The notes beneath the pieces are model-generated. The model ran no database searches. It was not told the DNA's origin and saw only the letters and a list, made by a program, of their open reading frames with translations. Source: Chitinophagaceae bacterium (GTDB lineage: Bacteria > Bacteroidota > Bacteroidia > Chitinophagales > Chitinophagaceae). Taken from it: a DNA stretch of 42,875 bases. Position numbers and translations under genes: made by a program. Where the stretch lies: assembly GCA_025449935.1 (NCBI GenBank), contig JANWIJ010000058.1, positions 1 through 42,875 of the forward strand, in the 5' to 3' direction. Of the stretch, positions 42,595 to 42,832 are shown piece after piece (the stretch's first letter is position 1; each line of letters opens with the position of its first letter).

Positions 42595-42643
42595 CGTCCC
42601 TTTAGTTCTTTCAATGCTTGATAGTAAATCGGGCAAAAAACAT

Positions 42644-42698
42644 GCGGAAGTAGCTCATTTGGTAGAGCACGATCCGCCAGCTGGCGGATCGGGGTGGC
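42644..42698 (+). pseudogene. Interrupted tRNA-Gly 5' copy carrying a palindrome in place of the anticodon loop
   Basis: The first 29 bases are identical to tRNA-Gly at 42760 (acceptor 5' strand, D-arm, start of the anticodon stem CGA). Then CCTTGCCAAGG of the real tRNA is replaced by TCCGCCAGCTGGCGGA, and identity resumes with TCGGGGTGGC. After that the T-arm and 3' acceptor strand are gone. The copy also shares the upstream GGCAAAAA-CAT flank. It cannot fold into a working tRNA because it lacks the 3' half and the anticodon. Confidence 0.92.
42670..42691. repeat. Perfect 22-base palindrome inside the interrupted tRNA-Gly copy
   Basis: The palindrome has the core TCCGCCAGCTGGCGGA (42673-42688) extended by the tRNA's own CGA and TCG, so the insert continues the anticodon stem into a longer perfect hairpin. 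It is not followed by a T run. Confidence 0.93.
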
Positions 42699-42759
42699 TA
42701 ACAAAAGTTCTTTTAATTGCTGGCATTAAACTGATAGTTATCGGATCCGGCAAAAACAT

Positions 42760-42832
42760 GCGGAAGTAGCTCATTTGGTAGAGCACGACCTTGCCAAGGT
42801 CGGGGTGGCCGGTTCGAGCCCGGTCTTCCGCT
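42760..42832 (+). tRNA. tRNA-Gly (anticodon GCC)
   Basis: A 73-base tRNA: acceptor GCGGAAG with CTTCCGC, D-arm GCTC ATTTGGTA GAGC, anticodon arm CGACC TTGCCAA GGTCG reading GCC, variable loop GGGTG, T-arm GCCGG TTCGAGC CCGGT, discriminator T. CCA is not encoded. It is the intact gene of a pair; the upstream copy at 42644 is interrupted. A strong terminator follows two bases later. Confidence 0.97.

Follow-up and report, generated by a model that had tools for sequence, protein, structure and literature searches.

A hairpin-marked partial tRNA-Gly copy and its probable relation to small GIY-YIG elements at bacterial tRNA genes

The tRNA-Gly locus and its counterparts in relatives

The window analysed here, 42,875 nucleotides long, is the entire contig C58 of a draft Chitinophagaceae genome (3.50 Mb, 118 contigs) designated G000; two congeners, G018 and G022, were used for comparison. 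Close to its end the window carries an intact tRNA-Gly(GCC) gene followed by a terminator-like hairpin, and upstream of this gene lies a partial copy of it that is interrupted by a palindrome (Table 1). The contig stops at 42875, 42 nt 3′ of the tRNA. In an Rfam scan only the tRNA itself scored above the cut-off, the remaining matches lying far below.

The tRNA portion of the partial copy (copy 1) begins at 42644. Downstream of a block of exact identity, tRNA nucleotides 30-40 (CCTTGCCAAGG, 11 nt of the anticodon arm) are swapped for the 16-nt TCCGCCAGCTGGCGGA at 42673-42688; tRNA sequence then resumes briefly, and the T-arm is missing. With its flanks the insert makes the longest palindrome of the window, and a ViennaRNA ensemble predicts the hairpin with a mean pair probability of 0.99. 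The spacer before the intact gene holds a second leader; thus, the unit consists of a leader and the tRNA 5′ part, at an offset of 116 bp, and the structure as a whole is a partial tandem repeat of leader and tRNA 5′ part in which a hairpin takes the place of one arm. Both leaders contain AGTTCTTT, which we assume to be boxA-like, and copy 1 is preceded by TATTTTTGC, which we take to be a promoter -7-like motif; a similar motif precedes the single tRNA-Gly in the same-genus loci inspected.

This layout (37 nt identical, 11 nt exchanged for a 16-nt palindrome, 10 tRNA nt resuming) agrees with the sequence-only reading, which had described a tRNA-Gly copy with its anticodon loop replaced and its T-arm lost. 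The second leader, the contig end at 42875 and a second such structure, at tRNA-Leu(gag), were features absent from that reading.

Table 1. Features of the two hairpin-marked tRNA loci in the window
Position	Strand	Feature	Basis
42588..42596	+	TATTTTTGC, presumed promoter -7-like motif, 5′ of copy 1	Read from sequence
42604..42611	+	AGTTCTTT, first, in leader 1; presumed boxA-like	Sequence
42636..42672	+	37-nt exact copy: 8 leader nt plus tRNA-Gly nt 1-29	Identical to 42752-42788
42670..42691	+	CGATCCGCCAGCTGGCGGATCG, perfect 22-bp palindrome, TCCGCC-class hairpin	Core 42673-42688 plus flanking CGA/TCG
42689..42698	+	TCGGGGTGGC, tRNA-Gly nt 41-50, identity back after hairpin	Alignment
42699..42759	+	Leader 2; differs from leader 1 save for the last 8 nt	Alignment
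42706..42713	+	AGTTCTTT, second, in leader 2; presumed boxA-like	Sequence; resembles 42604-42611
42760..42833	+	Intact tRNA-Gly(GCC)	ARAGORN; Rfam tRNA 61.5 bits
42834..42863	+	Terminator-like hairpin plus T run	Sequence, fold
39783..39867	-	Intact tRNA-Leu(GAG) with its own upstream element	ARAGORN
39916..39924	-	ATTGATAGA, tRNA resumed after hairpin	One mismatch to tRNA-Leu ATTGGTAGA
39925..39944	-	CCTGCCTGCCGGCAGGCAGG, hairpin inside partial tRNA-Leu copy, CCTGCC class	Sequence, automated flank test
39945..39954	-	GGGTGGCGAA, partial tRNA-Leu copy 5′ of hairpin	Sequence, automated flank test
39998-40006	-	Further unit with ATTGGTAGA	Sequence

The second structure spans 39916-40006 on the minus strand, 5′ of tRNA-Leu(gag), and comprises a partial tRNA-Leu copy with CCTGCCTGCCGGCAGGCAGG in ∼1.7 tandem units. 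Both genes have next to them a partial copy of their own tRNA that is broken by a GC hairpin. As to the palindrome of the tRNA-Gly copy, the exact 16-mer TCCGCCAGCTGGCGGA has no second site in the 3.50-Mb genome; its 14-bp core CCGCCAGCTGGCGG has one other exact site, and with up to two mismatches it was found in 36 places, against 1 for the reversed control.

We searched 22 same-genus relatives for the tRNA-Gly locus and compared the 17 with a strong match. The site is filled in G000 and empty in 17/17 relatives compared, a polymorphism seen between species only; the exact tandem 5′ copy occurs in one of 42 genus genomes, the window's own. The order of elements is kept in the relatives inspected: a small membrane ORF, the promoter-like motif, AGTTCTTT or a near variant, leader and tRNA-Gly. 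Most likely, the structure was acquired in the window's lineage. The sequence-only reading had set against its own proposal the picture of a palindrome found nowhere else beside a second tRNA-Gly decaying stepwise in sister strains; the 16-mer does lack a second site in the genome, but no decaying second gene was seen, tRNA-Gly being single and intact in all 17 relative loci.

Two further observations concern the surroundings of the gene. Between promoter and tRNA, the leaders of tRNA-Gly(gcc) in the genus often contain a species-specific inverted repeat. The tRNA-Leu(UAA) gene, a neighbour of tRNA-Gly by synteny, was not found in the G000 assembly (29-mer, up to three mismatches); it may be located in the gap beyond the contig end, and the downstream side of tRNA-Gly is thus concealed by that gap.

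Hairpin-marked fragments at other tRNA genes

The flanking sequences of 31 tRNA genes in G000, 33 in G018 and 52 in G022 were inspected (in G022, tRNAs too near a locus end were dropped and repeats removed to give 52). Many of these genes are flanked by a partial copy of themselves with a GC hairpin, 5′ parts lying upstream and 3′ parts downstream. In a strict automated test, with intact tRNAs masked, we required an exact match of at least 9 nt of the gene's own tRNA, directly next to a hairpin whose stem had 6 bp or more. For the three genomes 22 of 232 flanks were positive, against 13 of 4,640 trials in which tRNAs of other isotypes served as control; the 22 include one G018 hairpin scored twice, for two neighbouring tRNA-Pro genes, and a G022 Leu(gag) hairpin that may be a terminator. 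The weakest contrast was downstream in G018 (1/33 versus 3/660 in the control). Nine of the 31 tRNA genes of G000 were positive, by a test that misses cases visible by eye, such as tRNA-Cys of this genome.

Isotypes and replaced arms vary from case to case. In G000, the tRNA-Met copy consists of 38 tRNA nt, TCCGCCTAAGGCGGA and CGGGAGTTCAACTCTC; at tRNA-Phe, GGTGCGGTA is followed by TCCGCCAGAGGCGGA replacing the D-arm; at tRNA-Pro five or more units, with GTAG and TCCCGCTGTTAGCGGGA or one-base variants of it, form an array. The anticodon arm is replaced by TCCCGCAAGGGCGGGA at tRNA-Pro(cgg) of G018, and in tRNA-Leu genes CCTGCCTGCCGGCAGGCAGG sits in the D-loop.

The tRNA-Pro(tgg) array of G000 (contig C12), 5′ of the gene, has at least five tandem units of ∼47 bp, each made of CGGGAAGTAG, a TCCCGC hairpin, CACCTGGTT and leader; it directly abuts the intact tRNA-Pro, and a GIY-YIG reading frame lies on the opposite side. 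In G022, a dense cluster of about a dozen tRNA genes of unusual sequence was seen at C5:398588-401611, which may be a phage-type tRNA array. At one locus of another genome (L331 in G153), ARAGORN calls a tRNA-Phe with a TCCGCC hairpin as its D-arm, beside a plain tRNA-Phe. Hairpin-bearing copies of this sort are a likely source of mis-annotation.

GIY-YIG reading frames and hairpin classes

At several loci a small ORF stands between the hairpin-marked fragment and the intact tRNA. A full example is tRNA-Phe of G000, where the tRNA and the ORF are followed by GGTGCGGTA, TCCGCCGCGGCGGA and the remainder of the tRNA; this is a unit of the TCCGCC class with an encoded nuclease. Four such ORFs were scanned and matched PF01541 (GIY-YIG; E 1.6e-17 to 6.5e-11), and a five-sequence profile matched the solved UPF0213 proteins BH0048 (E 1.5e-8) and EF2693 (E 7.7e-8). 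Two tyrosines, a glycine, an arginine and a histidine are invariant in 13/13 aligned sequences, and two glutamates are invariant among the five closest; some of these residues are presumably the catalytic positions of the fold.

A same-strand tRNA is found no more than 170 bp from the small GIY-YIG ORFs (<200 aa) in five of six cases in G000, four of five in G018 and five of six in G022, i.e. 14 of 17 abut a tRNA (chance per genome at most 3e-8). One of the three distant from tRNAs (G018, C44) is at a contig edge; the other six GIY-YIG matches of the three genomes are proteins of 464-611 aa. The linked tRNAs in G000 are Leu(caa), Phe, Val(tac), Pro(tgg) and Gly(ccc), the matches at Leu(caa) and Pro(tgg) containing a stop. 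A PF01541 search of the window gave no GIY-YIG match anywhere in the contig, so that neither the tRNA-Gly unit nor the tRNA-Leu(gag) unit has a nuclease ORF.

The linkage was followed beyond the genus in GTDB species genomes scanned with the Leu-type profile. We confirmed 438 relatives and analysed the best 80, which include three loci of G018 and G022 already known; as the set was picked by similarity to tRNA-linked proteins, it says nothing on the tRNA-linked share of all UPF0213 proteins. Of these 80, 68 have a tRNA no further than 300 bp away, always on the same strand (68/68), with the ORF upstream of the tRNA in 46 and downstream in 22; the other 12 had no tRNA within this distance. On the far side of the ORF, a copy of at least 12 nt of the same tRNA was found in 61/68 loci, compared with 8/680 trials with other isotypes. 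By record title the hosts belong to Bacteroidota, Ignavibacteria, Balneolia and candidate phyla; since many are metagenome bins, single bins may be misassigned. Among viral contigs searched with the same profile, none of 34 pattern matches was confirmed.

A second query, the tRNA-Phe ORF of G000, was run in 396 genomes of the order and gave matches in 213, from which 30 loci were analysed. Eighteen of these have a tRNA, mostly Met(cat), within 350 bp and always on the same strand, 11 have none at this distance and for one no ORF was located; a partial tRNA copy was found in 17 of the 30.

Hairpin class, scored within 550 bp of the ORF centre, differs sharply between the two sets. In the Leu-profile set, restricted here to those 68 of 80 loci that exceed 2,500 bases, we observed the CCTGCC class in 62/68 and the TCCGCC class in 0/68; in the Phe-ORF set the CCTGCC class appeared in 1/30 and the TCCGCC class in 24/30. 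Background bins of the window's own genome matched the loose CCTGCC pattern in 22/359 and TCCGCC in 2/359. A tree was built from 102 of the 110 ORFs, eight loci being omitted as no ORF was located by pattern; it rests on 83 columns and its bootstrap had not settled. On it 72 CCTGCC-class and 21 TCCGCC-class rows are divided by one branch (support 100/97), and nine of the 102 rows have neither class. Hairpin class changes once on this tree, compared with a mean of 19.3 for shuffled labels (0/500 shuffles as low), and thus the coupling of hairpin to nuclease may be plain inheritance. The CCTGCC side carries tRNAs for Leu, Arg, Asn, Cys and Trp and the TCCGCC side those for Met and Phe; as each side spans more than one isotype, the class follows the nuclease more than the isotype.

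Origin of the tRNA-Gly copy and comparison with known systems

We consider it likely that the tRNA-Gly copy is an ORF-less member, non-autonomous or decayed, of a group of small homing-type GIY-YIG elements residing at tRNA genes. Its hairpin is of the nuclease-linked TCCGCC..GGCGGA class and an intact tRNA of the same isotype is immediately adjacent; we call it ORF-less because contig C58 has no PF01541 match. With no ORF in the copy, its link to the nuclease rests on architecture and hairpin class.

In its full upstream form such an element reads, in order, tRNA 5′ part, class-specific GC hairpin, a bit more tRNA, a GIY-YIG ORF of ∼80-100 aa and the complete tRNA; the mirror form, downstream, has the complete tRNA, often a terminator, the ORF and a tRNA 3′ part broken by a hairpin. 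We propose that the GIY-YIG enzyme cuts a tRNA gene free of the element. The broken end would then copy from the donor allele the hairpin, any ORF, and a second leader together with the tRNA 5′ part, and the copied DNA would be rejoined to the host's own tRNA 3′ part. In this way a working tRNA would be regenerated and a hairpin-marked remnant left behind. The layout, its recurrence, the linkage to same-strand tRNAs, the coupling of hairpin to nuclease and the relatives with an empty site are observations, while cutting, homing, action in trans and a role of the hairpin belong to the proposed model. Units lacking the ORF could be deletion products or could have been made in trans; as the tRNA-Gly unit has just the hairpin, leader and 5′ part within its 116-bp offset, its ORF would have been lost or the copy made in trans, perhaps by the TCCGCC-class nuclease encoded at tRNA-Phe of G000. 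As for promoter retention in the partial copy, the motif was found in 16/38 versus 11/38 (p 0.34), in a setting where it stands before just 49 of 116 ordinary tRNA genes; a terminator is shared in no more than 7/16 downstream-type loci.

The strongest of the competing explanations, which we still hold to be improbable, is a partial tandem duplication of the leader and tRNA 5′ part followed by neutral change, with the palindrome arising locally in the anticodon stem through template switching at a hairpin (quasi-palindrome correction). The second leader copy does show a duplication, the CGA/TCG stem ends are kept by the palindrome, and the exact 16-mer is unique. Against this explanation stand the recurrence of the layout and of the hairpin classes at numerous tRNA genes in several phyla, where a nuclease ORF lies in between, and a hairpin class that tracks the nuclease clade; moreover, the 37-nt block is without decay though both leaders have diverged. 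The hairpin itself may still have originated by template switching.

Much less credible is a REP-like palindrome put in by a RAYT/Y1 transposase, an origin the sequence-only reading had suggested. GC-rich palindromes are recurrent in the genus and several of the hairpins in tRNAs are preceded by GTAG. Nevertheless, G000 has 0 matches to PF01797 (Y1_Tnp), found in 17/41 genus genomes; the tRNA-Gly hairpin is flanked by CGA and TCG with no GTAG or CGTC tag at its foot; and a 400-kb sample contained 38 palindromes of at least 14 bp where a Markov model gives 36.75, i.e. there is no general excess. The uniqueness of the 16-mer and the tracking of the GIY-YIG clade by hairpin class also speak against this origin. 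The broader point of that reading, that a random insertion explains the copy less well than does a hairpin-bearing element, agrees with our results.

Equally improbable, in our judgement, is a functional leader RNA, in which the copy would fold as a tRNA-like regulator of tRNA-Gly. The confident prediction of the hairpin is in its favour, and the motif AGTTCTT precedes tRNAs that have an upstream element more often (8/14) than those without (8/102), though it is also found before sister tRNA-Gly genes that have no element. Against it, the copy is absent in the 17 relatives compared, and neither isotypes nor replaced arms are constant between cases. The suggestion that the RNA of copy 1 competes for the 3′ strand of the tRNA fared poorly: in the ViennaRNA ensemble of 42590-42861 the mean pairing probability of the tRNA 3′ acceptor strand was 0.61 with its own 5′ strand versus 0.08 with that of copy 1.

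An assembly artefact close to the contig end, which stops 42 nt past tRNA-Gly, hardly deserves belief, given that other assemblies, among them a 9-contig genome and those of named isolates, show the same architecture, and given a 37-nt repeat that at a 116-nt offset would probably fit in one read. An integrase island at the tRNA gene was considered and rejected: the 116-bp offset leaves no room for an integrase gene, and none was found among the seven Pfam-scanned neighbouring proteins at 33.2-42.6 kb of the window.

Returning to the GIY-YIG elements, one could generalize to a cross-phylum class of minimal mobile elements, each with one GIY-YIG enzyme and one cognate hairpin and with bacterial tRNA genes as homes. 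Such an element would cut a tRNA gene, leave a hairpin-marked fragment and rebuild the tRNA from the half it carries; each nuclease clade would have its own hairpin and set of tRNAs, and many ORF-less satellites such as the tRNA-Gly copy would exist. We regard this wider proposal as evenly balanced between holding and failing. If the reading is right, an odd tRNA pseudogene becomes the visible trace of a probable tRNA-gene parasite, and the elements suggest both a function for small stand-alone GIY-YIG proteins and an origin for tRNA fragments and palindromes near tRNA genes. They would also show one way for a mobile element to use an essential gene as its target and leave that gene working.

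The open-access literature that we searched yielded no report linking UPF0213 to tRNA genes or to hairpin-marked tRNA fragments, and in the portions available it held no description of bacterial GIY-YIG genes at tRNA genes with hairpins; the ORFs described here share with UPF0213 and stand-alone GIY-YIG proteins the PF01541 match and the similarity to BH0048 and EF2693. REP sequences of the GTAG and CGTC families are short GC-rich palindromes with family-specific arms, the GTAG families being thought dependent on an enzyme (PMC3733652, PMC6006769). Unlike these, the hairpins studied here are embedded in tRNA fragments and their class goes with a GIY-YIG clade, and G000 has no detectable Y1 transposase. 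Integrated elements leave behind a fragment of their target tRNA gene (PMC9897764); here, in contrast, the entire insert measures 116 bp, the fragments come from either the 5′ or the 3′ part of a tRNA and no integrase was found among the neighbouring proteins scanned.

The known system nearest in mode of action is SegB of phages T4 and T6. SegB is a free-standing GIY-YIG homing endonuclease encoded beside tRNA genes of the phage; it cleaves inside these genes and causes the tRNA + segB unit to be amplified in tandem (PMC13096335). The words ‘palindrom’ and ‘hairpin’ do not occur in the main text of that paper. The likeness to SegB is a GIY-YIG enzyme gene beside tRNA genes. The differences are that here the tRNA genes are cellular, the ORFs have ∼80-100 aa, a class-specific hairpin lies within a partial tRNA copy and many derivatives are ORF-less. 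A SegB-like nuclease gene is absent from the element at tRNA-Gly and present at five other tRNA genes of G000, some with stops. The family apparently represents widespread, seemingly undescribed DNA parasites at bacterial tRNA genes, and there is a fair chance that this variant of free-standing homing elements forms a class of its own.
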